Assembly: GCF_016862575.1 (NCBI RefSeq)
Contig: NZ_BONF01000011.1
Coordinates: 62,001-126,000 of the forward strand
Direction: 5' to 3'
DNA: 64,000 bases
From: Catellatospora bangladeshensis
GTDB lineage: Bacteria; Actinomycetota; Actinomycetes; Mycobacteriales; Micromonosporaceae
The notes beneath the pieces are model-generated. The model was not told the DNA's origin. It saw only the letters and a list, made by a program, of their open reading frames with translations, and did not search any database. Below are positions 20,815-44,199 of this stretch, in pieces. The translations under genes were made by a program, and so were the position numbers. How positions within the stretch are numbered: the first letter of the stretch is position 1; every line of letters starts with the position of its first letter.

Positions 20815-21122
20815 TGTGACTACCAGCCCTAGTTGGCACTTCCTAGCCATGGGTGGCACTCGAGGCAGCACGGGCCGGGGTCGCGGCGGCGGCCTCAGAG
20901 CCTGGTAGGAGGTTGCCGATTTCGGGTGACGGAGGCGGGTGTGATCATCGATACGTCGACTAGTGGGTCGGCGTGTCGGGCTGGAGCCGAAAGAGGGTCT
21001 TCGAGTAGGAACGGTAGCGACCAAGCCGCTGCTCCGGACTCGAAGATCCGTCGTTGAGTATTCAGGTCCTGATCGGGCAGGGCACACCCGCGGTGCCCAG
21101 CCCCGGCGAGTATCTGCCCACC
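20815..21122. repeat. Left end of the Tn7-like transposon
   Basis: Terminal repeat at 20815-20838 followed by a weaker copy (core AGCCATGGGTGGCA, about 20845-20858). The remaining bases to 21122 hold no gene that I can support. Bases 20810-20814 are the ACTGA target duplication. Confidence 0.75.
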
Positions 21123-21575
21123 TGCGGGCTACGCATGTACCCGTCGGCCGCAACGGACACTCGAGTGGCAGCTCCTTCGGCCGTTGGTGCACTTCGGTGG
21201 GACCGTACCGGGTCGCGGCGGTCGGCCGGTGTCCTACCCGCGCCGGTGCATCGTTGATGCGATCCGGTACCTGGTTCGTACCGGATGCCAGTGGGGTTCG
21301 CTACCGGCCGAATTTCCCGCGGCACTGGTCAAGCACTACTTCACTGTCTGGACCCGCGACGGCACCCTCAACCAGTTGCACAACACGCTGCGCGAACAGG
21401 TCCGCCAAGTCGAAGGCCGCAGCCAGGCCATTTCGCCGCTGCCGGAGAAGGTTTCGGAGTGTTGACAGGCCCGGCCGGTGCGCTGGTGGTCGACTTCCAA
21501 AGGGTGCGCGGTAACCAGACCGTCCTCAAGGTCAGCCGCGGCTACGACGGCGCTTCGATCACGGGTTCTTGGCTG
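21123..21575 (+). pseudogene. IS5-family transposase remnant, frameshifted
   Basis: Pieces of an IS5-type DDE transposase occur in order in three frames. M-Y-P-S appears near 21135, then T-L-E-W-Q-L-L-R-P-L in another frame. The conserved R-R-C-I-V-D-A-I-R-Y-L-V-R-T-G-C-Q-W and L-P-A-E-F-P stretch follows (about 21240-21320), and finally A-L-V-V-D-F-Q-R-V-R and S-R-G-Y-D-G-A-S-I-T-G-S after a further shift (about 21480-21570). At least two frameshifts and loss of the catalytic C-terminal half make it dead. It sits just inside the left end of the Tn7-like transposon, so it arrived as part of, or into, that cargo. Confidence 0.75.
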
Positions 21576-21754
21576 CCGAGCCGGGTACCCGCTGCGCGCC
21601 GGACGGGGACAACGGTAACGACGACCCGCCGCTGGCGTCTAGGCAGGCTCAAGCGGCAGTTGTGCCGTCTTGTGGCCGCGTGTCGAGGCGGTTGGTGGAC
21701 GATCGTGTCGTGCTGCCGCATTTCTCTGGTGACGTTCAGGCAAGTTCGCGCATT

Positions 21755-23110
21755 ATGGTGCCGTTCGAGGGCGAAGGCGAGGGTGTGGAGGAGCTCTCCT
21801 GGGGCCAGATGGAGCTGTGGGGTGGCATGCGGCGGCGGGGCACGTGGATGCCCGTGGGTTACGCGTTGCCGGTGGCACCTGGTACGACCGTGGCCGAGGT
21901 GGTTGCCGAGTTGCGGTTCGCGTTGGGCCGGTATCAGCCGATGAGGACGCGGTTGCGGTTCGAATCGGATGGTCGTACCCGGCAGGTGGTGTCCCGGCGG
22001 GGTGAGGTCGCGTTGGAGGTCGTTGATGTTCGCGATGACGGGGATCCGGCGCAGGTCGCCGAGTTGGTGCGGCGGCGGTTTTGGGACAGCGCATATGACT
22101 TCGTCAATGAGTGGCCGGTACGGGCTGCGGTCGTGCGTCATCGCGGCCTGGTAGTTCACCGGGTGATGGTGATGTGCCATTTGGTGACGGATGGCTTCGG
22201 CGCTTTGGTGATGTGGCGGGAGCTGTCCGAGCGTGGTTCGGACCCCGGTTCGGCGGGGGTGTCGTTGACCGCGATGCAGCCGATGCAGCAGGCCCGGTGG
22301 CAGCGGTCGCCGGCTGGGCGGCGGCAGTGTGCCGCAGCGTTGCGGTATTGGGAGCGGGTCCTTCGCAGCATGCCGGTCGGGCTGCTCGCCGATGGTGGTG
22401 CGGCTCAGCGACCGCGTCACTGGTCGGCGCGGTTGACCTCGCGAGCGATGTACGAAGCGTTGATCGTGTTAGCGGCGCGGATGAGGTCGGATACGTCACC
22501 GCTGTTGCTAGGGGTGTTCGTGACGGCGTGGGCGCGGGCGACGGGTAAGGATGCGGTGGTGACACGGGTGGTGGTGAACAACCGCTTTCGGCCCGGGTTG
22601 GGTGAGTCGGTGAGCCAGGTTGCCCAGACTGGCCTGTGTGCGGTCGACCTTGCCGGTCTGAGCCTCGATGACGCGTTGTCGCGCGTGCGGCGGCGTGCGA
22701 TGGCCGCGTACAAGCATGCCTACTACGACCCTGAGCAGATGGAAGAGTTGGTGGAGCGGGTTGGCCGCGAGCGCGGCGAGGAACTTGACCTTGGTTGCTT
22801 CTACAGCGATCGGCGTCTGCTCGATCGGGATCCGTCGGTCGGTGTGCGGGTCCCGGTCGAGCGGGAGGTGTTGGCCGCGTTGCCGCAGACCACTTTCCGT
22901 TGGGAGTCCAAGGGGGATGAGCCCAGCGAGCGGCTGTTCGTGTTCATCAATCCGGCCGACGGTGTGGTGGATATCAGTGTCTTCGGCGACACCGAGTATG
23001 TGTCGCCAGCGCGGATGGAGGCCTGCGTACGGGGGATGGAAGCGGTCGCGGTCGCGGCGGCGTTCGAGCCGACCGCCGCCGCGCTGCCCGGGGTGTCTGC
23101 TGAGGCTTGA
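21755..23110 (+). CDS. Stand-alone condensation-domain protein
   Basis: 451-residue protein with the fold of non-ribosomal peptide synthetase condensation domains and related acyltransferases. The active-site motif HHxxxDG appears as C-H-L-V-T-D-G near residue 148: the first His is Cys but the catalytic second His and the DG are kept. Typical later features include the N-N-R-F-R-P motif near 275. No adenylation or carrier domain is attached. The ATG at 21755 begins the conserved region, but no clear ribosome binding site is visible and the IS5 remnant ends just upstream, so the original 5' end may be lost. It converges with the SARP gene. Confidence 0.75.
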   Translation: MVPFEGEGEGVEELSWGQMELWGGMRRRGTWMPVGYALPVAPGTTVAEVVAELRFALGRYQPMRTRLRFESDGRTRQVVSRRGEVALEVVDVRDDGDPAQVAELVRRRFWDSAYDFVNEWPVRAAVVRHRGLVVHRVMVMCHLVTDGFGALVMWRELSERGSDPGSAGVSLTAMQPMQQARWQRSPAGRRQCAAALRYWERVLRSMPVGLLADGGAAQRPRHWSARLTSRAMYEALIVLAARMRSDTSPLLLGVFVTAWARATGKDAVVTRVVVNNRFRPGLGESVSQVAQTGLCAVDLAGLSLDDALSRVRRRAMAAYKHAYYDPEQMEELVERVGRERGEELDLGCFYSDRRLLDRDPSVGVRVPVEREVLAALPQTTFRWESKGDEPSERLFVFINPADGVVDISVFGDTEYVSPARMEACVRGMEAVAVAAAFEPTAAALPGVSAEA

Positions 23111-23175
23111 CGTCGCGGCTGAGGTTTACGCCCGTCGGTGACGGTCACCGTTTGCCGGATCTGCGGCTGGATTCG

Positions 23176-24027
23176 CTATCGGACGGCGAGGTTGTCGATG
23201 GTCTGGGCCAGGCCGTCGTCGCGGGGTGGTACCTGCAGCGCCGGATCGTCGGCGAGGATGGCCTGATGGAGCATGCGCAGTCGCAGGCAAGGCTCGAGGC
23301 CCAACTCGGTGGTCAAGGCGGCACGCAGCCGTTGGAATGCTTGCAGGGCGTCGTGTCTGCGGCCGCTGCGGTGCAGGGCGATCATGAGCTGCGCGTGGAG
23401 GTTCTCGTGGTGGGGATGCTCGGCGAGCATGCCGGCGAGTTCGGGCAGGACCTCTTGGTGGCGTCCGAGCCGCAGGCGTGCCTCGATGCTTTGCTCGATG
23501 GTGGTGAGTCGGGACTCTTCCAGGCGTTTGATCTGTGGCCTTAGCAACGCTCCGGCGTGGACGCCCGTGAATGCTGGACCACTCCATTGGCTTTGCGCGT
23601 CTTGCAGTAGGTCAGCGGCGCGTGTGTTGTCGCCGTACGCCAGGGCCTGTCTGCCTGCTGTGGTCAGACGCTGGTAACGGTGGAGGTCGAAATCGTCGGT
23701 TGCTGGGTTGAGCAGGTAGCCGCCGGGTGTGGTCATCAGGACGGTGGTAGCGATGGTAGCCGGATCGGTGCCGAGTCCGGTGCTGAGCAGTCTGCGTAGA
23801 TGCAGGACATACGTTTGCAGGGTGGTAGCGGCGCTGTGGGGCGGCTCGTCGCCCCACAGCTCGTAGAAGAGCGCGGCCGCGGATACGGCGTGGCCAGCGT
23901 GTATCAGGAGCAGGGCCAGTACCGAGCGTGGCTTGGGTGCTGTCGGGGTTATCGATGTGTCGTGGTTGGTGAGCGAAAGCGGACCTAGGACCCGGATTCG
24001 CATGCCGGTGGCATCTGGCTTCTGCAT
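23176..24027 (-). CDS. SARP-type transcriptional activator (BTAD domain)
   Basis: 283-residue regulator of the small SARP class (AfsR/DnrI/RedD type), which usually activates secondary-metabolite operons. An OmpR-like winged helix occupies about residues 10-95 (L-G-P-L-S-L, K-P-R-S-V-L-A-L-L-L-I-H-A-G, L-R-R-L-L-S), followed by the bacterial transcriptional activation domain to about 260 (H-P-H-H-E-N-L-H-A-Q-L-M-I-A-L-H-R-S-G-R). No NB-ARC or TPR extension is present. The ATG at 24027 has GAGG upstream and lies 11 bases after the stop of the GH13 gene, so it is the last gene of the malEFG-like operon. The link to starch genes is unusual. Confidence 0.85.
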   Translation of the reverse strand: MQKPDATGMRIRVLGPLSLTNHDTSITPTAPKPRSVLALLLIHAGHAVSAAALFYELWGDEPPHSAATTLQTYVLHLRRLLSTGLGTDPATIATTVLMTTPGGYLLNPATDDFDLHRYQRLTTAGRQALAYGDNTRAADLLQDAQSQWSGPAFTGVHAGALLRPQIKRLEESRLTTIEQSIEARLRLGRHQEVLPELAGMLAEHPHHENLHAQLMIALHRSGRRHDALQAFQRLRAALTTELGLEPCLRLRMLHQAILADDPALQVPPRDDGLAQTIDNLAVR

Positions 24028-24037
24028 CGGTTGAGCC

Positions 24038-25801
24038 TCACCGCTCATGGCTGTGATGCCAGACTTGGAAGCTCGGGCCGTCCGCCGGCAGTGTGACCGT
24101 GCCGGTGGTGTCCGGGCGCAGGTCGGCGGCGCCGCCGTACACGTTCGACCCGCCCGGCACGCCGGTGAGCTGGACCGGCGTGCCGGTGGCGCGCCGGGCG
24201 AGCACCAGCACGCTCTCGCGCTCGGTCTCGCGGACGAAGGCGAGCGCGTCGGCGTCCGCGTGCACCCACCGCAGGCCGCCGTGCCGCAGCGCGGGCGTGT
24301 CGCGGCGCAGCGCGACGAGCGCCCGGTACCGCGCGAACGTGGCGTGGTCCCAGCCGTCCGCCCGGTGCCACGGCATCGGCGTACGGGAGTCCTCGCCGTC
24401 GACGCCGCGCAGCCCGATCTCGTCGCCGGCGAAGACCATCGGCGTGCCCGGCATCGTCATCAGCAGCCCGGCCGCGACCTCCTGCCGATACGGGTCGCCG
24501 ACCACGGTGCGGATGCGGGCGGTGTCGTGCGAGCCGAGCAGCGTCCACGAGTGGGTCAGCGCGCGCCACGACACCCGCGCGGCGAAGGCCCGCATCGTGG
24601 CCAGCGCGGCCACCCCGTCCCGGCGAGGCACACCGCCCGGCACGCCGAGGAAGTGCGGCAGATCGAGGTCGTCGCCGCGCAGCCAGGTCCAAAGTGGGCG
24701 CAGAAAGCCAGCGTAGTTCATCGTGCCCTGCCAGCCGTCGCGGTCCAGGTCGCCGGTGTGGTCGTGCGCGTGCTCGGCGACGAAGAGCCCGTCGCCGGCC
24801 GCCGCCCGCAGAAACGCGGCGACCTTGTGGGTGTACGCGTCGGCGCCGCACCGCCCGGTCATGTTGGCCACGTCGACCCGCCAGCCGTCCAGCCCGTACG
24901 GCGGCCGCCGCCACGCCCGCACCACCTCGGCGAGCCGCTCCCGCAGCACGGGCGAGGCCCAGTTGAGCTTCGGCAGCGTCTTCACCCCCATCCACGACTC
25001 GTAGTCGCCGGATGCGTGGAAGTAGTACATCGCCCGCTCGGCCGCGTCCACATCGGACACGGCGGCGGTGAACCACGGGTGCGCGTCGCCGGTGTGGTTG
25101 GTGGTGACGTCGCCGACGATCCGCCACCCGCGGGTGTGTACCGCGCCGGCGAGCCGGGCCAGCGCCGCGTCGCCGCCGAGCAGCGGGTCGACGCGGTCGA
25201 ACGCGGCCGCGTCGTAGCGGTGGTTGGAGCGGGCCGGGAAAATCGGCGTCAGGTAGACGGTGTTGACGCCGAGCCGTTCCAGGTGGTCCAGCCGCCCCGC
25301 GATCCCGTCCAGGTCGCCGCCGTACCACTGCCGCTGCACGAGCGCCTGCCCGGTGTCGACCGGCGTGTCCCAGTCGCAGGGCACCGCCCAGTCCGGCGCC
25401 GGTGGCAGGTCCCGCCCGGAGCGGGCGAACCGGTCCGGGAAGATCTGGTACACCACGGCGTCACGGGACCACGCCGGCGGCGGGTCGTACGCGACGAGCC
25501 GGAAGTCCAGGTCGTCCGGGACGTCGTGGCCGGTGACGCCGAGCCCGTTCAGCCAGCGGTCGTCGACGAGGAAGCGGTAGTTGGTGACCGGGTTGCGCAC
25601 GAGCACCTCGGCCCGCCACCAGGTCGCGTCCGGCGTGGTGCGGTCGACGACCGCGGGCGCGAAGTGCGGCTCGCCGTCCGGTGTGTACCGCACGTGGACC
25701 CGCCGCGCGGGCGCGCCCGCGGGCACCCGTACGAAGACGGTCACGGTCTCGCCGAGGGCCGGGGTCAGCGTGGACACCATGGTCCCGTCGTGGTGTGGCA
25801 C
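24038..25801 (-). CDS. Cytoplasmic GH13 alpha-glucan hydrolase (neopullulanase/cyclomaltodextrinase-like)
   Basis: 587-residue enzyme without a signal peptide, expected to hydrolyse imported maltodextrins. An N-terminal beta-sandwich (about 1-110, F-V-R-V-P-A-G-A-P-A-R-R-V-H-V-R-Y) precedes the catalytic barrel, as in neopullulanases. Catalytic residues are in G-W-R-V-D-V-A-N-M (nucleophile Asp), F-V-A-E-H-A-H-D (acid/base Glu) and L-G-S-H-D-T-A-R-I (Asp). The V-Y-Q-I-F-P-D-R-F motif marks the start of the barrel. The GTG at 25801 has AAGGGA upstream and lies 4 bases after the malG-like stop. It is co-transcribed with the transporter. Confidence 0.9.
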   Translation of the reverse strand: MPHHDGTMVSTLTPALGETVTVFVRVPAGAPARRVHVRYTPDGEPHFAPAVVDRTTPDATWWRAEVLVRNPVTNYRFLVDDRWLNGLGVTGHDVPDDLDFRLVAYDPPPAWSRDAVVYQIFPDRFARSGRDLPPAPDWAVPCDWDTPVDTGQALVQRQWYGGDLDGIAGRLDHLERLGVNTVYLTPIFPARSNHRYDAAAFDRVDPLLGGDAALARLAGAVHTRGWRIVGDVTTNHTGDAHPWFTAAVSDVDAAERAMYYFHASGDYESWMGVKTLPKLNWASPVLRERLAEVVRAWRRPPYGLDGWRVDVANMTGRCGADAYTHKVAAFLRAAAGDGLFVAEHAHDHTGDLDRDGWQGTMNYAGFLRPLWTWLRGDDLDLPHFLGVPGGVPRRDGVAALATMRAFAARVSWRALTHSWTLLGSHDTARIRTVVGDPYRQEVAAGLLMTMPGTPMVFAGDEIGLRGVDGEDSRTPMPWHRADGWDHATFARYRALVALRRDTPALRHGGLRWVHADADALAFVRETERESVLVLARRATGTPVQLTGVPGGSNVYGGAADLRPDTTGTVTLPADGPSFQVWHHSHER

Positions 25802-25805
25802 GTGG

Positions 25806-26639
25806 CTATCCCTTCACTGCTCCGGCGGTCAGGCCCGAGACGATGTAGCGCTGGAGGAACTGGAACACGAGCACCGTCGGTACGGCGGTCAGCAGCGTGC
25901 CGGCGCAGAAGACGCCGAAGTTGTTGTTCCGCTCGCCGGAGATGAGCCCGTACATGCCGACGGAGAGGGTCTTGGAGCCGGTGTCGGTGAGGAACACGTT
26001 CGCGATGAGGAACTCGTTGACGGTCGCGATGAACACCAGCAGCCCGGTGACCGCGAGGATCGGTGCCACCAGCGGCAGGATGATCTGGAAGAAGACCTGG
26101 GCGTGCGTGGCGCCGTCGATGGTGGCCGACTCGTCCAGCTCGCGGGGCAGCGTGTCGAGGAAGCCCTTCATCAGCCAGGTGTTCACGCCGAGCGCGCCGC
26201 CGAGGTACAGCAGCACGAGGCCCCACGGGGTGTTGAAGCCGACCGCCGGCCACAGCTCGGTGACCGTGCTGAACATCAGGAAGATGGTCACGATCGCGAG
26301 GAACTGCGGGAACATCTGGATCAGCAGCAGTGCCAGCAGCCCGGTGCGGCGGCCGCGGAAGCGCATCCGGCTGAACGCGTACGCGGCCAGCGCGCCGAGG
26401 AAGACCGCGGCCGCCGAGGCGAGACCGGCGATCAGCATCGTGTTGGCGAACCAGCTCGCGAACCTCGTCTCGGACAGCAGCCGGTCGAAGTTCTCCAGGG
26501 AGAGCCCGGTCGGCAGCAGCTCGGTCGACGACAGCGTGCCGCGCGGGTTGAGCGCCGCCGACAGCACGAACAGGATCGGGAAGAGCGCGAACGCGACGGC
26601 GCCGGCCGCGACCGCGTGGCGCAGCGGAACGGTTCTCAT
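25806..26639 (-). CDS. malG: MalG-like maltodextrin ABC transporter permease
   Basis: 277-residue inner-membrane permease with about six helices. The EAA loop E-L-D-E-S-A-T-I-D-G-A-T-H-A-Q-V-F-F-Q-I-I-L-P-L (about residues 165-190), which contacts the ATPase, is intact. Length and motif match MalG, the short permease of carbohydrate ABC importers. The ATG at 26639 overlaps the malF stop (ATGA). The cognate ATPase gene (MsiK/MalK type) is absent. In actinomycetes one shared ATPase encoded elsewhere often serves several such importers, so this is not evidence of defect. Confidence 0.9.
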   Translation of the reverse strand: MRTVPLRHAVAAGAVAFALFPILFVLSAALNPRGTLSSTELLPTGLSLENFDRLLSETRFASWFANTMLIAGLASAAAVFLGALAAYAFSRMRFRGRRTGLLALLLIQMFPQFLAIVTIFLMFSTVTELWPAVGFNTPWGLVLLYLGGALGVNTWLMKGFLDTLPRELDESATIDGATHAQVFFQIILPLVAPILAVTGLLVFIATVNEFLIANVFLTDTGSKTLSVGMYGLISGERNNNFGVFCAGTLLTAVPTVLVFQFLQRYIVSGLTAGAVKG

Positions 26640-28264
26640 GCGTAGAGCTCCTCCTGGCGGCGGGTGCGCCGGAAGCTGACCGCCGACAGCAGCGCGACGA
26701 TCGCGAAGATGAACACGGAGATGGCGGCCGCGAACCCGTACTGCGCGCCGGCGGCACCGAAGGCGAGCCGGAACGTGTACGTGATCAGCAGGTCGGTCGC
26801 CCCGGCGGTGGGGTTGTCGGCGGGAAACGGGCCGCCCTCGGTGGTGAGGTAGACCGCGTTGAAGTTGTTGAAGTTGAACGCGAACGACGAGATGAGCAGC
26901 GGGGTCAGCGCCACCATCAGCAGCGGCAACGTCACCCGCCGAAACGACTGCCACGGCCCGGCGCCGTCCACCGTGGACGCCTCGGTCAGCTCCCTCGGTA
27001 TCGCCTGCAGCGCGCCGGTGGCGACCAGGAACATGTACGGGAAACCGAGCCACATCTGCACCAGCACGACCGCGAGCCGCGCCGACCACACGCCGCCGAG
27101 CCAGTCGACATCGAGCCCGAACAGCCGGTTGACCAGCCCGAAGTCGGTGTTGAACAGATCCCGCCAGACCAGCAGCATCGCGAACGACGGCATCGCGTAC
27201 GGCAAGATCAGCAGTACCCGGTACAGAGCGCGGCCGCGCATCCGCGGGGTGTGCAGCGCCAGCGCGCAGAGCAGGCCGAGCGCGAAGGTGGCCGCGACCG
27301 AGCCGACCGCGAACGCGACGTTCCACAGCAGGGTGCGCAGGAAGGGGCCGGAGATCGTCGAGTCGGTCAGCACGCGGGAGAAGTTCGCCAGTCCGACGCC
27401 GACCTTCCAGCCCTGCGCGAGCCGCTCGCCGTCGGCGGCGACGAACGCGCCGGCGCCCTCGTCGGCCGTCCAGGTGCGGCCGGTCGCGGTGTCCCGCACG
27501 CAGTCGCAGGCCTCGGCGTACTCCCGGGTGGCCTTGCCCTCGTAGGCGCGGGACAGCCCGGACGAGCGGATCGCGCCACCCGGCGTCGGCACCGCGAACG
27601 CGGTGATCTCGGCGCTGCGTGCGCTGGCCTGCCCGGCGTCAAGGACGGTGTACCCGCGCGCGGCGGTCACCTTCCCGGCGGAGTTGACGGTCACCTCACC
27701 TTCCGGCAGTGCGCGCAGCCCGGCGGCGTTACCGGCGTACACCGCGCGGGTGGCGGGGTCGGTGACGAGGAAGACCAGCGGCCCGGTCGCCGGGTCGCCG
27801 GTGGTGGCGACCGCGAGGGCGTACTCGGTGGAGCCGGGCACCTGGGTGACCGAGGCGGTCTGGATCGCCACGATGGCCTCGGCCTTGTTCCCTCGGTGGC
27901 CGTCGCCGAAGTTGGTGAACGCGGTGCTCGCGGTGTAGAGGATCGGGAAGATCTGGAACGCGATGAGCAGCAGCGTGCCCGGGACGAGGTACTTGGCCGG
28001 GACGTGCCGGCGGGTCAGGTAGAGGTAGAAGATCGCGGCGGTGGTGCCGGCGAGGATCGCCAGCCCGGCCCAGGCACGCGCCTCCACCAGCGGAAACGCG
28101 GCCCAGACCGCGATGCCCGCGGCGAGGCCCAGCAGCACCACCTTCGCGGTCAGGCCGGTGAGCGTTACCGGTGCGGAGTCGCGGACGATGTACGGCTCGG
28201 TGCGGTGCCGGCCGCCGTGCGGGGCCCGGCGACCGGGCCCCGCACTCGTGAGCTGTGTCGCCAT
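26636..28264 (-). CDS. malF: MalF-like maltodextrin ABC transporter permease
   Basis: 542-residue permease, long for the family because of a large extracytoplasmic insertion (about residues 110-290) between the first helices and the conserved core, as in MalF. The EAA loop E-L-T-E-A-S-T-V-D-G-A-G-P-W-Q-S-F-R-R-V (about residues 418-440) is intact. The N-terminus has two or three helices and a short basic leader. It forms the channel with the MalG-like protein. It starts directly (within 1 bp) after the malE-like stop, and its stop is coupled to malG. Confidence 0.9.
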   Translation of the reverse strand: MATQLTSAGPGRRAPHGGRHRTEPYIVRDSAPVTLTGLTAKVVLLGLAAGIAVWAAFPLVEARAWAGLAILAGTTAAIFYLYLTRRHVPAKYLVPGTLLLIAFQIFPILYTASTAFTNFGDGHRGNKAEAIVAIQTASVTQVPGSTEYALAVATTGDPATGPLVFLVTDPATRAVYAGNAAGLRALPEGEVTVNSAGKVTAARGYTVLDAGQASARSAEITAFAVPTPGGAIRSSGLSRAYEGKATREYAEACDCVRDTATGRTWTADEGAGAFVAADGERLAQGWKVGVGLANFSRVLTDSTISGPFLRTLLWNVAFAVGSVAATFALGLLCALALHTPRMRGRALYRVLLILPYAMPSFAMLLVWRDLFNTDFGLVNRLFGLDVDWLGGVWSARLAVVLVQMWLGFPYMFLVATGALQAIPRELTEASTVDGAGPWQSFRRVTLPLLMVALTPLLISSFAFNFNNFNAVYLTTEGGPFPADNPTAGATDLLITYTFRLAFGAAGAQYGFAAAISVFIFAIVALLSAVSFRRTRRQEELYA

Positions 28265-29500: not shown

Positions 29501-29815
29501 ACCCGCGGCGTGACCGGCATCGTGTGCGGCTCGGACCTGATGGCCCTCGGCGCGATCCGGGCCGCCCGCCAGCGTGGACTGTCCATCCCGGACGACGTGT
29601 CGGTGGTCGGGTACGACGACTCACCGCTGATCGCGTTCACCGATCCGCCGCTGACCACCGTGCGGCAGCCGGTGACCGCCATGGCCGTCGCGGCGGTGCG
29701 CGCCCTGATCGACGAGATCAACGGGCACGGCACCCACCGCTCCGAGTACGTCTTCCGCCCCGAGCTCGTGGTCCGCTCCTCCACCGGTGCGGTTAAGCAG
29801 CTGTTGGTGGCGTAG
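29501..29815 (+). pseudogene. LacI-family regulator, 3' fragment only
   Basis: About 103 codons encode the C-terminal third of a LacI-type regulator. The core is G-I-V-C-G-S-D-L-M-A-L-G-A-I-R-A, then I-P-D-D-V-S-V-V-G-Y-D-D-S and P-L-T-T-V-R-Q-P, ending at TAG 29813-29815. The DNA-binding domain and most of the sugar-binding domain are missing. The fragment directly abuts the truncated malE 5' end, so a single deletion probably removed the regulator's first two thirds, the shared promoter region and the first malE codons. Divergent lacI-malE gene pairs are the normal arrangement in actinobacterial maltose operons. Confidence 0.85.
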
Positions 29816-29934
29816 CCGCCGATCCCGTGCGCCTTCGCCTTCCAGGCTCGGCCTTATGGCCTGGTCCGGTGTTCCCACATGGTCGGCGATCGCGGACATA
29901 GGCGTCTGAGGCCAGCATGTTGACCAGGACACGG

Positions 29935-29975
29935 CACGTACCGGTGCGACGCGGTGAGCATCGCACCGGTACGTG
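29935..29975 (-). terminator. Terminator hairpin, 15-bp perfect stem
   Basis: Stem 29935-29949 with 29961-29975 and an 11-base loop, 13 bases past the stop of the secreted amylase gene on the minus strand. No T-run, as is common in actinomycetes. The rest of 29816-29934 has nothing I can support. Confidence 0.7.
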
Positions 29976-29987
29976 GCGAATTGGGAT

Positions 29988-35504: not shown

Positions 35505-35528
35505 GCAGCCCACACCACCGCCAGACCC

Positions 35529-35660: not shown

Positions 35661-35801
35661 CACTGCGCGCTCGTCATCCAAGTCGCGGAGGTCAGCGTGA
35701 TTGGTAACGACGACCACGACCTGGCCGGTGTGCTGGGCCTCACCACCGTGGCCCAGCCCGCAGCCCCCGAACAGGGCCGCCTCGTGGCCAACATCCTTTG
35801 A
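35661..35801 (+). pseudogene. Second LacI-family regulator remnant
   Basis: The last 35 codons to TGA at 35799-35801 read V-S-V-I-G-N-D-D-H-D-L-A-G-V-L-G-L-T-T-V-A-Q-P, then a tail E-Q-G-R-L-V-A-N-I-L, with high G/C at third positions. This is the signature C-terminal region of MalR/LacI-type regulators. Upstream, the match (A-L-R-A-R) continues only in another frame near 35661 and then disappears, and no start or DNA-binding domain exists. The gene is a short decayed 3' end, 38 bases before the alpha-glucosidase, where a regulator gene would originally have preceded it. Confidence 0.75.
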
Positions 35802-35838
35802 GCCCGCTGACCGGCGGCGACCACCCGGAGAGGAACCC

Positions 35839-37494
35839 GTGATCCTGCCAACCAGCTTCATCGATCGCGATTCGACGGCGCCACCTCGGGCTGAACCGGG
35901 TCAACAATGGTGGCGCACCGCGATCATCTATCAGACCTATCCGCGTTCCTTCGCCGACTCGGGCGGCGACGGCATCGGCGACCTGCCCGGCATCACCGCG
36001 CGGCTGGACCACCTCGTCGAGCTCGGCGTCGACGCCGTGTGGCTGTCGCCCTTCTACCCCTCGCCGCAGGCCGACGCGGGCTACGACGTGTCCGACTACC
36101 GGGACGTGGATCCCATCTTCGGCAGCCTCGACGACGCCGACAAGCTCCTCGCCGCCGCCCGCGAGCGCGGGCTGCGGGTGATCGTCGACCTCGTGCCCAA
36201 CCACACGTCCAGCGAGCACCCTTGGTTCAAGGCCGCGCTCGCCGCTGGCCCAGGCAGCCCCGAGCGGTCCCGCTACATCTTCCGGCCGGAAAAGCCCAAC
36301 AACTGGCAGAGCACCTTCGGCGGCCCGGCCTGGACCCAGGTACCGGACGGCGAGTGGTACCTGCACCTGTTCGACGCCGGCCAGCCCGACCTCAACTGGG
36401 ATCACCCCGAGGTGCGCGCCGAGTTCCGCGACATCCTGCGCTTCTGGCTCGACCGCGGCGTCGACGGCTTCCGGGTCGACGTCGCGCACGGCCTGATCAA
36501 GCAGGCCGACCTCGCCGACTGGCACTACCCCGTCGAGCCGCTCACCGGCCCCGCCACCGAGAGCATCCGGCCGCCGATGTGGGACCAGGACGCCGTGCAC
36601 GACGTGTACCGCGACTGGCGCCGGGTGCTGGAGGAGTACCCGGGCGAGCGCATCCTCGTCGCCGAAGCGTGGGTGGCGCCGTCCGAGCGGCTCGCGGCGT
36701 ACGTGCGGCCCGACGAGATGCACCAGGCGTTCAACTTCGAATACCTGGAGGCGGCCTGGACCGCCGCCGCGCAGCACGAGGTGATCACCCGCTCGCTCGC
36801 CGCCAACGCGGCGGTCGGCGCGCCGACGACCTGGGTGCTGTCCAACCACGACGTGCTCCGGCACGCGTCCCGCCTCGGCCTGCCGATCGGCAGCCCTCGC
36901 CCGCGCGGCATCGGCGCCGACGACCCGCAGCCGGACCCGGTGCTCGGCCTGCGCCGGGCGCGCGCGGCGACGCTGCTCATGCTCGCGCTTCCCGGCTCGG
37001 CATACCTGTACCAGGGAGAGGAGCTCGGCCTGCCCGAGCACACCACGATGCCCGACGAGGCCCGGCAGGACCCGATGTTCCGGCGCACCCAGGGCGAGCA
37101 GAAGGGGCGCGACGGCTGCCGCGTGCCGATCCCGTGGGAGGCCGACGCCCCGGGATACGGGTTCGGCCCGTCCGGCGCGACCTGGCTCCCCCAGCCGCCG
37201 GTCTTCGCCGCGCTGGCGCTCGACCGCCAGCGCGGGGTGCAGGGCTCGACGTACGAGATGTACCGGTCGGCGCTGCGCCTGCGCGCCCAGCACCAGCTCG
37301 GCGCCGGCACGCTCACCTGGGCCGACGGGCTGGACGGCGTGCTCACCTTCCAGAACGGCAGCGTGTTCGTGCTGACCAACTTCGCCGACACCCCGGCCGC
37401 ACTCCCGCCGGGCGCCCGCATCCTGATCAGCAGTGAGCCGCTGGACAGCGACGGCAAGGTGCCGACGGACGTCACGGTGTGGGCTGAGGTGTAG
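35839..37494 (+). CDS. Intracellular GH13 alpha-glucosidase (oligo-1,6-glucosidase/maltase type)
   Basis: 551-residue enzyme without a signal peptide that would release glucose from imported maltooligosaccharides. The start of the barrel I-I-Y-Q-T-Y-P-R-S-F-A-D-S and G-D-G-I-G-D-L-P-G-I are typical. Catalytic residues lie in G-F-R-V-D-V-A-H, L-V-A-E-A-W-V and L-S-N-H-D-V-L-R-H. The G-S-A-Y-L-Y-Q-G-E-E-L-G-L motif is conserved. GTG at 35839 is preferred because of GGAGAGGA upstream; an earlier in-frame start at 35701 would run through the LacI remnant. Subfamily specificity (alpha-1,4 versus alpha-1,6, or transglycosylation) cannot be fixed from sequence by eye. Confidence 0.88.
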   Translation: MILPTSFIDRDSTAPPRAEPGQQWWRTAIIYQTYPRSFADSGGDGIGDLPGITARLDHLVELGVDAVWLSPFYPSPQADAGYDVSDYRDVDPIFGSLDDADKLLAAARERGLRVIVDLVPNHTSSEHPWFKAALAAGPGSPERSRYIFRPEKPNNWQSTFGGPAWTQVPDGEWYLHLFDAGQPDLNWDHPEVRAEFRDILRFWLDRGVDGFRVDVAHGLIKQADLADWHYPVEPLTGPATESIRPPMWDQDAVHDVYRDWRRVLEEYPGERILVAEAWVAPSERLAAYVRPDEMHQAFNFEYLEAAWTAAAQHEVITRSLAANAAVGAPTTWVLSNHDVLRHASRLGLPIGSPRPRGIGADDPQPDPVLGLRRARAATLLMLALPGSAYLYQGEELGLPEHTTMPDEARQDPMFRRTQGEQKGRDGCRVPIPWEADAPGYGFGPSGATWLPQPPVFAALALDRQRGVQGSTYEMYRSALRLRAQHQLGAGTLTWADGLDGVLTFQNGSVFVLTNFADTPAALPPGARILISSEPLDSDGKVPTDVTVWAEV

Positions 37495-37769: not shown

Positions 37770-39674
37770 TCAGCCGCGCTTGGAAGCCTGCCTATGGGCC
37801 GTGCCGTCAATTCGATGGCTGAGGTCCTCGGCGAAGGTGTCGAGCCGAGACCGCAGTTCGGCGTAGTGGCCGTGGCCGGATGCTAGAAACGGCCAGCGGA
37901 CGTGCACGTAAACGGACAAGGCGCCGCCCGGTTTCGCCTGGCGGGGATCGGGGCGCAGCAACGGCGAGAAGTGATGCTCGGATTGCGTGATCTTGGTCCA
38001 GATCCAGACGGAGGCTAGGAGCCGCTTGGAGTCCGACCAGTCGACGTGGAGGGTCCCCTTGCCGTTGACAGGCTTGCCGACAAGGCCGCTGGTGAGGTCA
38101 CGCCACTCGTCGCCGCTGAGCGACCAGGTGGCGAGCGCGTCGCGGCGCCTGCCGTAGTCGACGCGGCTTTCAGCATGGTGCAGGCGGTCGGTCAGTGCCT
38201 CGACGGCGTCATCGAACGCGACCCGGCACTTCGGCCTCGTCAGTTGTCTGGTGACGGTGGCCACGGCGTGGCGGGCGGCGCTCCAGGGCAGGCCGAGCAG
38301 CGTACCGGCATGCCTGAGGCCGCCGCCGGTAACCATACGAGCCAAGATCACGGGAACGGCGCGGCGAACCCACCGCTCGTCGGCATCAACGCTGTTGAAG
38401 TAAGTGCTGTACCAACCGGTTGGCAGGTACTGCGGGATGTGGTGCAGCCCGAACCCGACCCGCCGTGGTGGGATCTTGGTCTCTGGCAGGCCCAGTTTCC
38501 GGATGATGTGCTGGGTACCGGACGCCGTGCCGGCGACGGTGAGGAAGCCGGGCGAGCAGCGCTCGTCGTCGCCCAGTGCTCTGCGGACCCACTTGCGGGT
38601 GGGTCGGCTCGCGTCGAACATGTCGCGCAGAAGGTCGCCGAGGATCGCGGGTTCGCAGGTTAGCATCTGGTCAGCGGCGCCGAGGAGAGCCGCGGCGACG
38701 GCCGCGTCGGCAGGTGGCCGGTCGTAGACGCGGATCTCGAGGACGTTGCGGCCGGCGTCTCGGGCGGCGGTGATCTCGTGTCGTAGCTGACGGATGTACG
38801 CATCGACCGTGTCCACCTGGCCGGGTGCGAGCACCGAACGGCCGGCTGGCCAGGAGGCGGTCAGCAGTGTGGTCAAGATGCGTAGGTCCGCGAAGTAGCG
38901 CGCCGGTGACGTTGGCTGCCCGACGCTGACCACCGCAGGCGGCCGGTCGGAGCGCAGCAGCGCGAGTAGCCGTCGCTGAAGGTGCAGCGACTCCTCGCTG
39001 ATGGATGCTCGCGCGGTCTGGGCGTCGGTGGCGTTGTCCAGCCGGTATCCGCATGGCTGGTACGGCGCTGTCGACGTCGTCGGGTTCCGGCACGCCGCCG
39101 GGTGCGTCACCGGGTGGGCGGCCAACGGCAGCAGTTGCGGGCTGCCGGGGCGGCGCTGGTGCGCCGGATTGCCGCAGCCCGGGCAGGTGTGCCGGAGCAG
39201 CCATCGGTGGGCAGGGCACGCGAACACGACCGGCACGCGCCACAGCTTGCTCCACGCCCCGCCGTGGCGGTTCTGAATAGGGCTGCCGTCGCCGGCCAGA
39301 CATTCCGCGCAGTAGCGGCTGAACCTGGCGAAGATCCAGTTCTCGCGGATGAACACGCCATGAGCTGTCCGGCGGCGCCCCGTCCATTGTTGGTCCAGCG
39401 GCGGATACCTCGGGGCGAGACTGGCCAGGGTCAGATCAGTGACCTCGGCCAGGGTCAGCCGGGTGGCGTGGGCGAACGTGGCGGTGAGCGGTGGGTCGAG
39501 GGCGAAGATGACGCTGGAAGCCATGGTGCTCTGTCGCCGGCCGCCGTCCAGGCCGGTGGCTTGCGCCAACTGGGTCGGGGTCATGTCCAGGCGGTGCGCG
39601 AGGCGCAGCATGAAGCCGGGCAGTGACTCGGCCGGCAGCGGGTCCAGGCTGCGCGGCAACGGCATGCCGTTCAC
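37770..39674 (-). CDS. tniQ: TniQ-family target-selection protein
   Basis: 634-residue member of the TniQ/TnsD family, which in Tn7-like transposons recruits the transposition complex to a target. The N-terminal signature P-L-P-A-E-S-L-P-G-F-M-L-R-L-A, with the following helix-turn-helix-like segment, is clear. The zinc-finger area has C-A-E-C near residue 118 and C-P-A-H...C-P-G-C (about 150-170). The length is that of a TnsD-like protein rather than a short CRISPR-associated TniQ. The GTG at 39674 overlaps the tniB stop (GTGA). It is the last gene of the transposition operon. A site-specific DNA-binding role is inferred from the family. Confidence 0.9.
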   Translation of the reverse strand: MNGMPLPRSLDPLPAESLPGFMLRLAHRLDMTPTQLAQATGLDGGRRQSTMASSVIFALDPPLTATFAHATRLTLAEVTDLTLASLAPRYPPLDQQWTGRRRTAHGVFIRENWIFARFSRYCAECLAGDGSPIQNRHGGAWSKLWRVPVVFACPAHRWLLRHTCPGCGNPAHQRRPGSPQLLPLAAHPVTHPAACRNPTTSTAPYQPCGYRLDNATDAQTARASISEESLHLQRRLLALLRSDRPPAVVSVGQPTSPARYFADLRILTTLLTASWPAGRSVLAPGQVDTVDAYIRQLRHEITAARDAGRNVLEIRVYDRPPADAAVAAALLGAADQMLTCEPAILGDLLRDMFDASRPTRKWVRRALGDDERCSPGFLTVAGTASGTQHIIRKLGLPETKIPPRRVGFGLHHIPQYLPTGWYSTYFNSVDADERWVRRAVPVILARMVTGGGLRHAGTLLGLPWSAARHAVATVTRQLTRPKCRVAFDDAVEALTDRLHHAESRVDYGRRRDALATWSLSGDEWRDLTSGLVGKPVNGKGTLHVDWSDSKRLLASVWIWTKITQSEHHFSPLLRPDPRQAKPGGALSVYVHVRWPFLASGHGHYAELRSRLDTFAEDLSHRIDGTAHRQASKRG

Positions 39675-40906
39675 GCCGAACCGGGCGACGCGTTCGGGGT
39701 TCCCTTGTCATCGAAGACGGTGTTGCGGCGGGTCCGGGGCCGCGTGCGGCCGGTGTCGGCGGGTGTGCGGGGCGGGACGTTGGGGATCTCTGCGGCGGTC
39801 CGGTCGCGGCCGGGCACGGCGCCTAGGTTGATGTCCACACCGTCGAGCAGGTCGATGTCCAGCCGTTCGGCGCTGGTGTCGATGGCGTGGGCGCAGCCGT
39901 CCTCGATGAGCCGTTCCAGCAGGCCGACCACACCGCCGGTGCGGCGGAACAGGTACTCGGGCATGGTTCCGTCGGTGAGCATGCCCGGTGCGGCGCGCAG
40001 CAGCCGTAGCTGCGTCTCGACGCCCGCCAAATGGGTCGCCCATGCGGCGATCTGGGTCGGGCTGTCGTAGCGGAACGGGCCCAGCTCGACTAGGTCGAAG
40101 CGGCGCTGGGTCTGGGTGGCCTGCTCGTCGCCGGACTGTGGCGGCAGGGCCCACCGGCCGGACGCGCCGTCGCCGAGCAGCCCCGACTGTGGGATACCGA
40201 CGCCGATCAGGACCAGGGTGACGTGCATGCTCATCAGGCTGCGCAGCAGATCGAGGGCGTCGCGGTCGGCTTCCCGGTGCATCCGGAGCCGACTGACGTC
40301 ATCCAGGATGAGCACCTTCGTGCAGTGCTCGTATAGCGAGGTCCGCACCGCGGCCACGAGCTGGGCCAGGGTCCGCTTGACGTGTGGGGCGCCGTAGAAG
40401 TCCAGGATCGCCTCGCACACGCTCTTCGGGGTGGCGGTGACCGGGGTCTGCACGTACGCGACGGTGGCCCACAGGTCTCGGGTGCCCGGCACCGTGTGCG
40501 GGTTGACCTGCTGGTGCAGGTCCAGCCACTGGTCCTCGAACGCGGCGGCGACCTCGCAGGCGGTCTCGGTCTTGCCCTGGTATCCACCACCGGTGATCAT
40601 CAGCCCGGCGCGGGTGGTCGGGTGATGCTTGAGCGCGTTGCTCTGCAACCGCGACCACATCACCCGCGACACGGCGGCGCCCATCGGGGTCTCCTGGAAA
40701 GTCAGGTTCGCATGCGTGGCCGCCCGATGCAGGTCATACAGGCCGCGTCGGCGGGGCCCGAGTTTGCCGTACTCGCCGGCGGCCAGCCGGGGCGCCGGCA
40801 CGAACGCGTGCCGGGTGCTGCGCCATCGCGCCCAACCCGTCGCGGTTTCCCGGTCGCTGGCCGGACCTGGCAAGGCGAACGGCGCCACCACCGCATCGTC
40901 GTTCAC
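39671..40906 (-). CDS. tniB: TniB/TnsC-like AAA+ ATPase
   Basis: 411-residue ATPase that in Tn5053/Tn7-like systems links target selector and transposase and provides target immunity. Walker A is G-G-G-Y-Q-G-K-T near residue 107-114; Walker B is V-L-I-L-D-D-V-S-R-L near 196-205, and the whole AAA+ core is intact. The C-terminal 80 residues are Pro/Arg-rich. The GTG at 40906 forms a GTGA overlap with the stop of the second-frame C-terminus of tniA, and its own stop overlaps the tniQ start. Confidence 0.9.
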   Translation of the reverse strand: MNDDAVVAPFALPGPASDRETATGWARWRSTRHAFVPAPRLAAGEYGKLGPRRRGLYDLHRAATHANLTFQETPMGAAVSRVMWSRLQSNALKHHPTTRAGLMITGGGYQGKTETACEVAAAFEDQWLDLHQQVNPHTVPGTRDLWATVAYVQTPVTATPKSVCEAILDFYGAPHVKRTLAQLVAAVRTSLYEHCTKVLILDDVSRLRMHREADRDALDLLRSLMSMHVTLVLIGVGIPQSGLLGDGASGRWALPPQSGDEQATQTQRRFDLVELGPFRYDSPTQIAAWATHLAGVETQLRLLRAAPGMLTDGTMPEYLFRRTGGVVGLLERLIEDGCAHAIDTSAERLDIDLLDGVDINLGAVPGRDRTAAEIPNVPPRTPADTGRTRPRTRRNTVFDDKGTPNASPGSA

Positions 40907-43174
40907 GGCCCACCGCGAGCGGACGGTGGTTCCGTCTCGTCGTCAGCGGGCAGCAGCAGAAGGCTGCGCTCGCGCAACCCGGCACCCAACCGGGGCGGCG
41001 GCGCCGGTGGTCGCGGCACGACCTGCTCACGGCGACGACGCCGGTGCGTGTCCACCGCATCGATGCAGTCCCGGAGCCGCCCGGACGGCAACGGCACCAC
41101 CGGCGCGAGGCCATTTGTCGCGGCCGGCTCCGCTATGTCCCCGGTCCTGCTTGGACGGTCGGCGTTGGCGGCGGTTGCTTGCGCGGTCTCGCGGGCGTGC
41201 CCGACCCGCTGCTGCTTGCTCACCTGTGTGGGCCACCGTTCGACCGGGTTGTGCCTGCCGAGCAAGTCCAGTAGCACCGGCAGCAGCTCTACATCGGAGC
41301 GTGGCGACAGGCCGGGCCTGGCGAGCCTCGGCCAGTAGCTCACGGACCCGGGCGTCGTTGAACGACGGGACCTCGCCGTCGGCTGGCAGCCCGGTCCAGC
41401 GCAGCGTGTGCCACTGGTGGTTGTCGGGGTCCTGGAAGAACACGAACCGGGCGTCACGGGGATCCCGGCGCACCACCCACTTGCCCTTGTGCTGGCCGCC
41501 CCGCGTCGACGGTGCGTCCCGGTACGGCTTCAGTGCGGGTCCGTCGTACCACAGCCCGCGGATCTTCACGCCGCGCCGTGCGTGGATTGCGACGTGGTGG
41601 GCGGGCAACAGCTGGTAGTACAGCTCCGGGGTGGGGATCTGCAGCGCGAACCCGCCTTGGGCCATCGCCGCTGCGAACAGGGTGTTCGGGCTATGCCGAC
41701 CTGCCGGGTCCCATGCCGGGGCGTGTTCGCCCAATACACGGTTTTGCCAGATCTGCACGGACCAGGTGGCGATCAGGTGCTCCATCTCGTCCACGGTCAG
41801 CGCCGCGTCGGCCTCCGGATCGGCGCCGCGGTCGGCGACATCCACGCCCTGGTAGCCGAGCAGGTGCTCCAGTAGCAGGCTGCGGATGCCGCCAAAGGCG
41901 CGCTCGATGGCTTGCTTGTCGGTCGGGCGGAGCACGCGACTGGGCAGTATGTTCGCGCCGATGACGCGCTGCACGTCGATCAAATGGTGGTTTTTGTAGA
42001 CGGCGCCGTGGTCGGTGGTCACCGTCTCGGGGGCGAAGAACGGCAATCCGGCCACCCGATGCCCGGCGAACTCGGCCACCACCGCCGCCGGAACGCCCGG
42101 GTAGGGCCACTCCATGTCCTCACCCCAGTCTGGGCGCAGCGGCAGCGGCATCATCACGTCCCGCAGCAGCATCGCCACGTCCATCGAGGTGTCCGACACC
42201 AGAGTGAGCCGAAACGCCACTAGCGAATGCGTATAGACATCGAGCGCCAGGCTCAGATATGCCGACACCGGCTCGCCGAACACACCTTCGCGGACCTTGA
42301 CCGGCAGCAGCGTGGTGTCCAACGCCACCACCTGCCCGGGCCGGTGCACCACCACATGAGTGCCGGTGGCCACCGCCGCGGCAGCCGCCGCCGAGCGGGC
42401 GTACCGCTGCCTGGCCCCACCCGGGCCGAACCAGTCGATCCACACCTGCCGCAGCGTCTCGTAGCAGGGCACCACCACATCCGGACCGAACCGCTCGCGC
42501 ACGTACTGGTGCACCAGCCGTTCCCGGGCGCGCATGCTCACCCGAGACCGGTGCAACGTCTCCGCCCGCACGGCGACGATAGCTTCCCGGATCGGCTCCG
42601 TAATACTCGGCCGGGAACCGGCCTGACGCAGCCACCGGTCGTCCGCGCAGCCGACCGCGCCGAACCGGCGCCGTCGCCCCTCCATCCGGATCAACGTCCG
42701 CAGGCTGACATGCTCAAGCGCGAGCATCCGTGCGTGCTCCGGCTCGCAATCGCGCAGCCGCGACAACTCCGCGACCTTCGCCAGCCGGCGTTGCGTCACC
42801 GTCGTGGTCGCCGGGTCGTACTCCGGACGCGGCTCACCCGGCCCGGGCCGCAGCGGATCACCGCCCCGGTAGCCGGTCTCCACCTCCAGCAGATGCGCCA
42901 CCCGCAGCGCCACCTGCTCGCGCCGGCGCGGTGGAAGGTCCGCAAGCAGCTTGGGCTGCCGGCCCCGATCCGCCGCCGGCAGCCGCGACGACCTGCTCGA
43001 TGGCCGGCATCCAGGATGGTTAACCAGGAACCGTACCGTCGTCGCCAGCCTTGCTCCGTCAGCGCCGGCCAGCAACACCCGGCCGCGGTACGGCTCGAAC
43101 AAATCCACTGTCCATTCAACGGCGTCCACGACCAGCACCGCGCCCGGCGACAGGTCCAGCATCACCTCGCTCAC
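40903..43174 (-). pseudogene. tniA: tniA/tnsB-like DDE transposase with a frameshift
   Basis: Transposase of the Mu/TnsB/TniA integrase type. The retroviral-integrase-like core is complete, with Asp at about 285 (V-A-L-D-T-T), Asp at about 387 (T-T-D-H-G-A-V) and Glu at about 423 (A-I-E-R-A-F-G-G), followed by the Mu-type C-terminal domain. The frame from GTG 43174 reads sensibly to about 41320, then turns into Arg/Ala-rich nonsense ending at 41027. The +1 frame continues as L-S-P-R-S-D-V-E-L-L-P-V-L-L-D-L-L-G-R and ends at TGA 40903, exactly overlapping the tniB start. One extra base near 41311-41327, a sequencing error or a +1 slip would explain this. Confidence 0.85.
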
Positions 43175-43935
43175 CAGCAAGCCCTCCACACCAGCGCGGC
43201 GTCGGCCAACGGCCGGCCTAGGTCGATGCCTAACTGTCGTCGCCACAGCAGGTGCAGCAGGTGCGCCCGCGCCACCGCCGGCGCCTTGGTCTGCTGCACC
43301 AGCTCTCCGAACGGGCGTGGACGCTCCGCCGCACCCGCCAGCAGCTGCGCTTGGAGCCCGAACTGGTCAACCAGCGGGCGCCGCTGCGCCGACAGGGTGT
43401 CCACGGTGGCTATCACGTGCGATCGCCAGCCTGTCACGACCGTGTAGCGCCAGCCGCACGCGAGCGCCGCCTCGTTCGCGGCAGCGAAGCACACCCGGTC
43501 CTCGTCCTCGATCCGCTCGCCCGGGCGAACGTCGATCAACCATCCGCCAGCGCGGGTCAGCGCCAGGAAGTCCGGAACGTGTTCCCGCCAGCCTCCGCCG
43601 GAGGCGAACCGCAGCCGGAACGGCTGCGACAGCACATCGGTCAGCTCAGCGGCGAAGTCCAGCACCAACAGCAGCCGCTGTTCGGCCACACTCTCGAACC
43701 CGTGATGCCGGCCCGTACTGACCAGGAACTGCAATCCGGGCCGATGCCGCTGCCCCGCCCGCCACGAGAAGCGCCGTACCGGCTGGCAACCAGCACGCGG
43801 CACCAACGCCAGATCCCGCACGGCACACGCCACCGACGCACCTGACAGCCGCCACGTTGCCGACCACCGTCCCGGCCAACCGGCACCAAGGTCCAGCGCC
43901 GCCCGCGCGGACGCCGCGTCGAACGGTAGGCACAT
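43171..43935 (-). CDS. TnsA-like endonuclease subunit of the transposase
   Basis: 254-residue protein matching the actinobacterial TnsA-like subunits encoded before tniA. In Tn7, TnsA cuts the 5' ends so that the element moves by cut-and-paste. The nuclease fold shows F-E-S-V-A-E-Q-R-L-L-L (acidic residue), H-V-P-D-F-L-A-L (acidic residue) and W-L-I-D-V-R-P-G-E. The lysine of the classical motif is not obvious, so cleavage chemistry is inferred. The ATG at 43935 is preceded by GGGACGAG; the frame extends 42 codons further without a better site. Its stop overlaps the tniA GTG. Confidence 0.82.
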   Translation of the reverse strand: MCLPFDAASARAALDLGAGWPGRWSATWRLSGASVACAVRDLALVPRAGCQPVRRFSWRAGQRHRPGLQFLVSTGRHHGFESVAEQRLLLVLDFAAELTDVLSQPFRLRFASGGGWREHVPDFLALTRAGGWLIDVRPGERIEDEDRVCFAAANEAALACGWRYTVVTGWRSHVIATVDTLSAQRRPLVDQFGLQAQLLAGAAERPRPFGELVQQTKAPAVARAHLLHLLWRRQLGIDLGRPLADAALVWRACW

Positions 43936-44097
43936 CTCGTCCCAGCCACAACGGCCCGAGCACAGACCGACATCGCTACTCGCTGTCGGCGGGACCGACT
44001 GTCCGCCCGGGCTGGACGTTCCAAGTGCTCGGACTCGCACCCCTATATCGGAACAGATCAATTACATGACACCCGGCCGACACGCGGACGCCTTCAG

Positions 44098-44199
44098 TGC
44101 CAAGAATCCCTGGGAGTCGCTGCCAACCACCGCTGGTGCCGCATTGGAAACCCGGAGGCTGACGAATCGTCGCGATGCCAACTACCGCTGGGAGTCACA
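44098..44199. repeat. Right-end repeats of the Tn7-like transposon
   Basis: Three direct copies of a TGCCAANNANCNCTGG core: 44098-44118 and 44176-44196 (both extended to CTGGGAGTC) and 44121-44140 (CTGGTGCC). The last runs to the terminal ACA at 44199, followed by the ACTGA duplication at 44200-44204. They are candidate TniA binding sites. Bases 43936-44097 hold no gene I can support. Confidence 0.8.

Follow-up and report, generated by a model that had tools for sequence, protein, structure and literature searches.

A Tn7-like transposon with a probably foreign starch cluster, cut by a deletion in its control region, within a conjugative element of Catellatospora bangladeshensis

We analysed a stretch of 64,000 nt from the genome of Catellatospora bangladeshensis (8.83 Mb), which is called the window below and forms part of contig C11 (365,983 bases). 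At positions 20815-44199 the window carries a Tn7-like transposon of 23,385 bp whose cargo appears to be a starch and maltose cluster that was taken from outside the host genus and has lost an internal control region. That the element is real, that its cargo is foreign and that the deletion took place are, taken jointly, very probable, and we are less sure of the model of cargo gene expression proposed below. The original prediction, made from the letters of the window, had placed a Tn7-like element with starch genes inside a conjugative element, and our analysis upholds this.

The 24 bp terminal inverted repeats of the element agree at 21 of 24 bases and are flanked by perfect copies of a 5 bp target-site duplication (Table 1). 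A degenerate end pattern that tolerates up to three mismatches gave two matches in the window and none in 100 shuffles. As a separate control, every TG..CA pair lying 3-60 kb apart in the window and adjoined by a matching 5 bp word was scored. Only one of the 17,558 pairs reached at least 18 of 24, namely that of the transposon itself (21), and the runners-up were three pairs at 17. The two ends and the ACTGA duplication that had been predicted are borne out by both tests. As is expected of Tn7-like transposons, the TG..CA ends are accompanied by several repeats that could serve as transposase sites. Such internal repeats had also been predicted, and they are present on both sides but are all weaker than was implied. 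On the right, the repeat at 44098-44121 lies 78 bases inside the end and differs from it at 6 of 24 positions, and the repeat at 44121-44144, 55 bases inside, differs at 9 of 24 (89% over 19 nt), a level reached by 27 sites across the whole window; the left one is short (Table 1).

The insertion can also be read from sites that lack it. The left end lies four bases beyond the stop codon of a replication-relaxation gene (20808-20810), whose protein has matches in seven of the 10 other genomes of the host genus (11 genomes with the host). The three best of these, G004 (87%), G002 (61%) and G003 (60%), were compared with the window, and in each the backbone is uninterrupted, passing from one flank directly to the other with no insert. 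The window positions that are joined are 20804 and 44205 in G004, and 20786 and 44206 in G002 and G003. The check for insert-free relatives that the original prediction had proposed was therefore successful, and the element shows both the 5 bp duplication and the empty site of a Tn7-like insertion. The backbone encodes VirB4-like, coupling-protein-like and replication-relaxation proteins; in G002 it is found at 3.18 Mb of an 8.9 Mb contig and is therefore chromosomal there. The sequence and the three empty sites show that the transposon inserted just 3′ of the replication-relaxation stop codon in a chromosomally resident conjugative element. The opposite view, that the repeats are products of chance in ordinary genomic variation and that no transposon was inserted, is rejected by the shuffles, in which the end pattern is absent, and by the control, in which one pair of 17,558 stands out. 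It is further refuted by the empty sites and by the occurrence of the same ends beside the same operon in other genera, and we regard it as extremely improbable.

Four transposition genes, all of them open frames, lie at the right end in what looks like an intact tnsA-tniA-tniB-tniQ operon. This operon had been predicted, and it is corroborated by profiles and motifs, although profile support for tniA is weak. The TniA product matches the ShCAST TnsB profile with an E value of 1.4e-15, and its catalytic residues D310, D412 and E448 are present and align with those of eight relatives, except that L092 is without the second aspartate. The DDE transposase, AAA ATPase and TniQ expected of a Tn7-like element are accordingly all found, and the TnsA-like protein has conserved residues E127 and D164. 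Excision would probably proceed by cut-and-paste through TnsA and TniA; judged from the genes, this mode is likely, not certain.

The cargo gene families that had been listed, comprising two secreted amylases, a MalEFG-type importer, two further GH13 enzymes, a SARP and a condensation protein, are confirmed by family matches. The two amylase genes, the alpha-glucosidase gene and malF, malG and malZ all have open frames. Each of the four GH13 proteins has motifs I and II of the family, and three have motif IV, with amylase 1 having VDSHD at that place. The two CBM25-type repeats of amylase 1 are 53% identical to each other, the first being a borderline match to CBM26 as well, and the real start of this protein is probably near 32993.

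Where the original prediction had seen a complete cluster, we find a malE without its start and a malR of which about the last third is left, a C-terminal remnant without the DNA-binding part. Neither the whole malE, with start and signal peptide, nor the divergent LacI-type malR of a whole maltose cluster is present. DNA of the malE block matches the corresponding cluster of genome G018 up to window position 29508 (G018 14848), and the match resumes at 29504 (G018 15779). The break is identical when G013 is used for comparison, falls within one base with G029 and with the host's own cluster on contig C8, and within three bases with G003; with G019 and G032 the alignment ends earlier on the malE side of the junction. 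The lost DNA comprises the region between malE and malR, the start of malE and about six of its codons, among them the charged beginning of the signal peptide, and the first approximately 240 residues of MalR with its DNA-binding part, the first matched residue being 239 of the G013 protein and 248 of the G018 frame. These comparisons show that one deletion, some 930 bp long, took away the malE-malR control region together with the start of malE and the greater part of the repressor.

This cluster would be a second one for its host. A search with cargo MalF at an E value of 1e-60 or better found the protein in 24 of 61 genomes, a set made up of the host, 10 more members of its genus and representatives of other genera and families. 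Cargo MalF is 74-76% identical to its three closest matches, all from other genera, and 59% identical to the host's chromosomal copy. Eight of the 11 host-genus genomes have such a MalF, the exceptions being G004, G008 and G009. The chromosomal order malZ-malG-malF-malE, with divergent malR and alpha-glucosidase genes, was seen in six of seven clusters, with the cluster of G029 departing from it only in having no malZ; the host and G019 have an amylase gene between malR and the alpha-glucosidase gene. In the native host cluster the aligned stretches of malZ, malG, malF, malE, malR and the amylase are free of stops, and the alignment of the alpha-glucosidase contains one stop ahead of a 532-residue open frame. 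Chromosomal relatives of amylase 1 (73-77%) occur in all 11 host-genus genomes, the host's own on contig C41, and are apart from the mal genes in the seven stretches viewed (five of the host genus, G019 and a Streptomyces).

Two midpoint-rooted trees point in the same direction. In the MalF tree (14 rows, with 13 of the 24 other matches), the cargo protein groups with G018, G029 and G013 (91/96, not starred) within a fully supported group that excludes the two host-genus rows. In the amylase 1 tree (13 rows; 12 relatives, without the partial sequence of G005, each represented by its best aligned stretch), the cargo protein groups with G019 (95/94), and ten host-genus rows form a fully supported group that does not include it. 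The trees and the identities lead us to reject an origin of the cargo by duplication of the host cluster within the genus. Because of the trees and the gene order, the cargo is regarded as a xenolog of genes that the host already has. For malF, the tree and identities place it closest to other genera of the same family, and its parts may have come from more than one source.

Because of the deletion, and of a strong hairpin that follows the upstream, same-strand amylase 1 gene, the malE-malF-malG-malZ operon would be poorly expressed or silent. The hairpin (Table 1) compares with a mean level of -17.4 kcal/mol in shuffles (standard deviation 2.7) and has no T-run; it is possibly a terminator ahead of malE. 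The divergent secreted amylases would be expressed and could be repressed by the host's chromosomal MalR through an operator-like site between them, and their products would be taken up by the native importer of the host. The site is the only one of its two-part pattern in the window and is seen on both strands. CTTGCA-type hexamers are present in four of five chromosomal malE-malR regions, and PMC5526262 gives CTTGCAG as the MalR core in Streptomyces lividans, where it precedes amylase genes as well; for the Actinoplanes regulator AcrC the motif given is CTTGC(A/T)G. With the chromosomal malEFG-malR clusters described there (Streptomyces MalR, Actinoplanes AcrC) the cargo shares gene families, gene order and CTTGCA-type motifs, and it differs from them in lacking most of the repressor and the control region and in having two adjoining amylase genes. 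Control of the cargo amylases by host MalR is suggested by these motifs. The cargo confers no capacity that is obviously new, since the native cluster of the host also has open frames; what it contributes may be amylases and not an entire additional function.

Several observations weigh against one part or another of this interpretation. Around the junction, the empty sites and the window disagree at 9-15 bases, and the sequence before insertion can therefore be deduced in outline, not letter for letter. Cutting by the TnsA-like protein is uncertain because it and its relatives have DVR (eight of nine compared, the window's among them) or DIR (one of nine) where a PD-(D/E)xK nuclease is expected to have its lysine. 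The operator-like site is weak, since 0.24 matches are expected when two mismatches are allowed and an equal number arose in five of 100 shuffles. Nor is there any enrichment of single CTTGCAA words (5 against 2.6 expected). In six genomes the DNA upstream of chromosomal amylase 1 has either no such hexamer or one, which counts against a conserved MalR site there. A GTG at 29500 starts the longest remaining open malE frame, so that some translation is possible. A terminator scan of 29400-30100 listed nothing at the hairpin, and a codon test of low power gave no clear signal of decay in malE, malF or malG.

One alternative is a cargo that is functional as a whole, expressed in spite of the deletion by read-through from the amylase gene, from a new promoter or with the SARP as activator, and improving starch use by the present or later hosts. 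The open frames and the retained GH13 motifs speak for it, as do the lineage-specific amino acid changes in the cargo and in G018 (4 versus 6 in MalE, 9 versus 18 in MalF and 7 versus 5 in MalG), the SARP gene at the end of the mal block, and the fact that a recipient could gain from the cluster, three of the 11 same-genus genomes being without a close MalF. However, the start and upstream region of malE are gone, the hairpin stands between amylase 1 and malE, no sigma-70-like promoter was found in 29400-30100 by a scan that covers actinomycete promoters poorly, and the host has its native cluster. The MalZ changes (4 versus 0) also tell against such a cargo, although they are unreliable, coming from 148 codons and an alignment whose G029 row has no true MalZ there. 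We think this explanation unlikely. The element might instead be a relic, an old insertion with decaying, passive cargo in which neither transposition nor the starch genes matter. The malE-malR deletion, the insertion-sequence fragment at the left and the failure to find a second copy of the element fit such a history, but the four open transposition genes with their TniA and TniB motifs, the near-identical ends, the perfect duplication and the other open cargo frames do not, and we consider it rather doubtful. In a variant of our preferred interpretation, the cargo would have been trimmed until the secreted amylases alone work, as a plug-in module with an operator that host MalR can read, uptake and repression being left to the host. 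This is an improbable refinement. If it is true, the transposon carries only that half of a primary-metabolism pathway which is compatible with the resident copy, a case relevant to how core-metabolism genes that move come to harmonize with the network of a host, as asked by Benler et al. (2021; PMC8649781).

That study reports 6,549 delimited Tn7-like transposons with median lengths of 14-29 kb, an Actinobacteria-dominated TnsB clade without experimental characterization, few complete pathways in the cargo, and central-carbon genes accompanied by genes of sugar catabolism and transport. Since metabolic and sugar-transport cargo is already described there, the original prediction took too narrow a view in regarding the cargo of these elements as mostly resistance or defence. 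Our element resembles members of the Actinobacteria-dominated clade in its TnsA-, TnsB-, TnsC- and TniQ-type genes, repeated ends and metabolic cargo, a likeness that does not amount to a place in the authors' tree. At 23.4 kb it lies within their median range, and it stands apart from a collection in which complete pathways are few by carrying almost an entire starch cluster, the uptake operon of which is broken. In the open-access literature, no description of a starch cluster carried by a Tn7-like element came to light, which does not show that none is in print; such a cluster is an unusual cargo of a published kind. The case joins a cleanly bounded Tn7-like element with empty sites to a nearly whole primary-metabolism cluster that would have moved across genera, into a recipient that already owns one. 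The exact deletion of the control region makes it a testable instance of fitting mobile metabolic genes into a resident regulatory network.

Transposons of the Tn5053/Tn402 family (TniABQR) have tniA, tniB and tniQ, a 5 bp duplication, and a TniR resolvase with a res site. The window element is like them in these three genes and in the duplication, and differs in its tnsA-like gene (43171-44061); we know of no tnsA gene in that family. In a Pfam search of the 14 frames called in the element, which did not extend to shorter uncalled frames or res sites, no resolvase was detected.

The closest transposases found are 70% identical and come from a named genome collection (eight loci) and from plasmids; only four of 60 host relatives have matches, at 31-34%, and a search of the host genome for further copies of the left end gave a single 56-base match at 78%. 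These figures do not show the spread of polysaccharide use that the original prediction envisaged. We examined 16 loci with TniA relatives, L003-L010 from the named collection and L011, L012 and L092-L097 from among the plasmid matches. In seven of them, from Streptomyces, Kitasatospora and Nocardia, both ends, of the same type as in the window, and a 5 bp duplication delimit elements of 5.8-30 kb (Table 1), from which a consensus of the ends can be drawn for one group of Tn7-like elements in actinobacteria. In the other nine (L003-L009, L095, L096), some of which are cut by contig or locus ends, the pair of ends was not found. The eight duplications, that of the window included, share no common word (ACTGA, GTCGA, ACTCC, CGTGT, ACAAG, GTGGC, GCACG, GGTGG). 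With cargo counted from annotation between tniQ and the far end, no starch genes are annotated in the six annotated related elements, which are all but that of S. narbonensis. The element of the Streptomyces linear plasmid pFRL3 has the same four-gene operon, a TniA that is 65% identical, the same type of end and duplication, and likewise cargo for nutrient uptake (PstS/C/A/B, PhoX); it differs in carrying genes for phosphate uptake and arsenic resistance, among others, instead of starch genes, and in ends that agree at 18 of 24 bases. Among four candidate stretches in viral contigs, no transposase relative was confirmed.

Table 1. Features of the Tn7-like element, by window position, and elements related to it.
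Feature	Position or length	Strand	Remarks
Target-site duplication ACTGA, left copy	20810-20814		Overlaps stop codon of replication-relaxation gene
Left terminal inverted repeat TGTGACTACCAGCCCTAGTTGGCA	20815-20838	+	Match to end pattern
Left inner repeat, possible second transposase site	20845-20860	+	Weak; 81% over 16 nt
IS4/IS5-type transposase gene fragment (DUF4096)	21184-21465	+	53 bits
Stand-alone condensation-domain protein	21569-23110	+	59 bits
SARP-type regulator (BTAD)	23176-24048	-	Overlaps malZ 3′ end by 11 bp
malZ-like maltodextrin glucosidase (GH13)	24038-25801	-	5bn7, 266 bits
malG-like permease	25806-26636	-	Frame open to 27326, overlapping malF beyond about 26636
malF-like permease	26636-28264	-	Family match
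malE-like sugar-binding lipoprotein, 5′-truncated	28265-29500	-	Comparison with relatives
Deletion junction	29504-29508		About 930 bp lost relative to G018; flanks overlap by 5 bp
malR C-terminal remnant (LacI-type repressor)	29504-29815	+	79-87% identical to four family orthologs
Hairpin directly after amylase 1 stop codon	29925-29987	-	-38.6 kcal/mol, z -7.9
Secreted amylase 1 (two CBM25-type repeats, fn3, GH13)	29988-33080	-	
MalR-operator-like repeat TTGCAACGTCTTGCAAG	33142-33158		Between divergent amylase genes; motif match only
Secreted amylase 2 (GH13 closest to animal-type amylases, two CBM20 stretches)	33231-35504	+	
Alpha-glucosidase (GH13)	35701-37494	+	8yif, 494 bits
tniQ target selector	37770-39674	-	PF06527, 81 bits
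tniB/tnsC AAA ATPase	39671-40906	-	PF05621/PF13401; Walker A and B motifs
tniA/tnsB DDE transposase	41027-43246	-	Weak Pfam rve match, below cut-off; ShCAST TnsB profile match
tnsA-like endonuclease subunit	43171-44061	-	NF033179, 161.7 bits (cut-off 110)
Two inner repeats, right end	44098-44144	-	Weak repeats
Right terminal inverted repeat TGTGACTCCCAGCGGTAGTTGGCA	44176-44199	-	Match to end pattern
Target-site duplication ACTGA, right copy	44200-44204		Perfect match to left copy
S. nojiriensis element	8,119 bp		Two cargo genes, NUDIX and GNAT
Streptomyces NBC_00455 element	7,282 bp		One cargo gene, alpha/beta hydrolase
Streptomyces NBC_01217 element	6,458 bp		No annotated cargo
Nocardia NBC_01377 element	5,778 bp		No annotated cargo
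Kitasatospora purpeofusca element	7,253 bp		Two cargo genes
S. narbonensis element	10,926 bp		Perfect 24 bp ends
pFRL3 element (L011/L098)	NC_023283.1 226840-256870, 30,031 bp		Ends 18/24 identical; duplication GGTGG

Some of the related loci have peculiarities of their own. The annotated TniA of Streptomyces NBC_00455 (L092:20235-22223) lacks four residues around the second catalytic aspartate, and the ends of its element are perfect. An AIPR-domain gene lies between the presumed tniB frame and tniQ in S. narbonensis (L010:16756-18501). In Streptomyces caniscabiei two ends of the same type stand back to back (L009:4478, minus strand, and 4484, plus strand) with five bases (CACGC) between them, as if two copies had been inserted side by side.

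Two further ideas about the cargo were tried and given up. The condensation and SARP genes were considered as a clue to the donor. In 60 related genomes, the condensation protein has its top five matches at 43-50% identity; the 4.3 kb loci around these five contain no SARP match, and this clue was dropped; in the chromosomal mal stretches compared, the SARP likewise had no match at an E value of 1e-3. The importer match to 3jyr, which we take to be GacH, and a malZ match named acarbose hydrolase raised the idea of an acarbose-type inhibitor cluster, which was rejected when Pfam detected no cyclitol-biosynthesis gene in the 10 cargo frames.

For the conjugative backbone, a named plasmid relative was sought and rejected on coverage of the VirB4-like protein. 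The best match (Embleya) is 56.5% over 64% of the protein, and none of 1,510 plasmid records covers at least 80% of it. In G004 (contig C9, L034:6953-12752) the VirB4-like and coupling-protein genes are separated by about 5.8 kb of other DNA, and the backbone therefore accepts insertions at more than one place. Beside the transposon, window positions 44205-44300 hold partly inverted CTGACAG repeats, mostly kept in the three empty-site strains, which possibly mark a transfer origin or control site. Farther along, the stretches 50343-50534 and 50764-50956 cross-match each other's counterparts in related backbones at 68-70%, which suggests an internal duplication.

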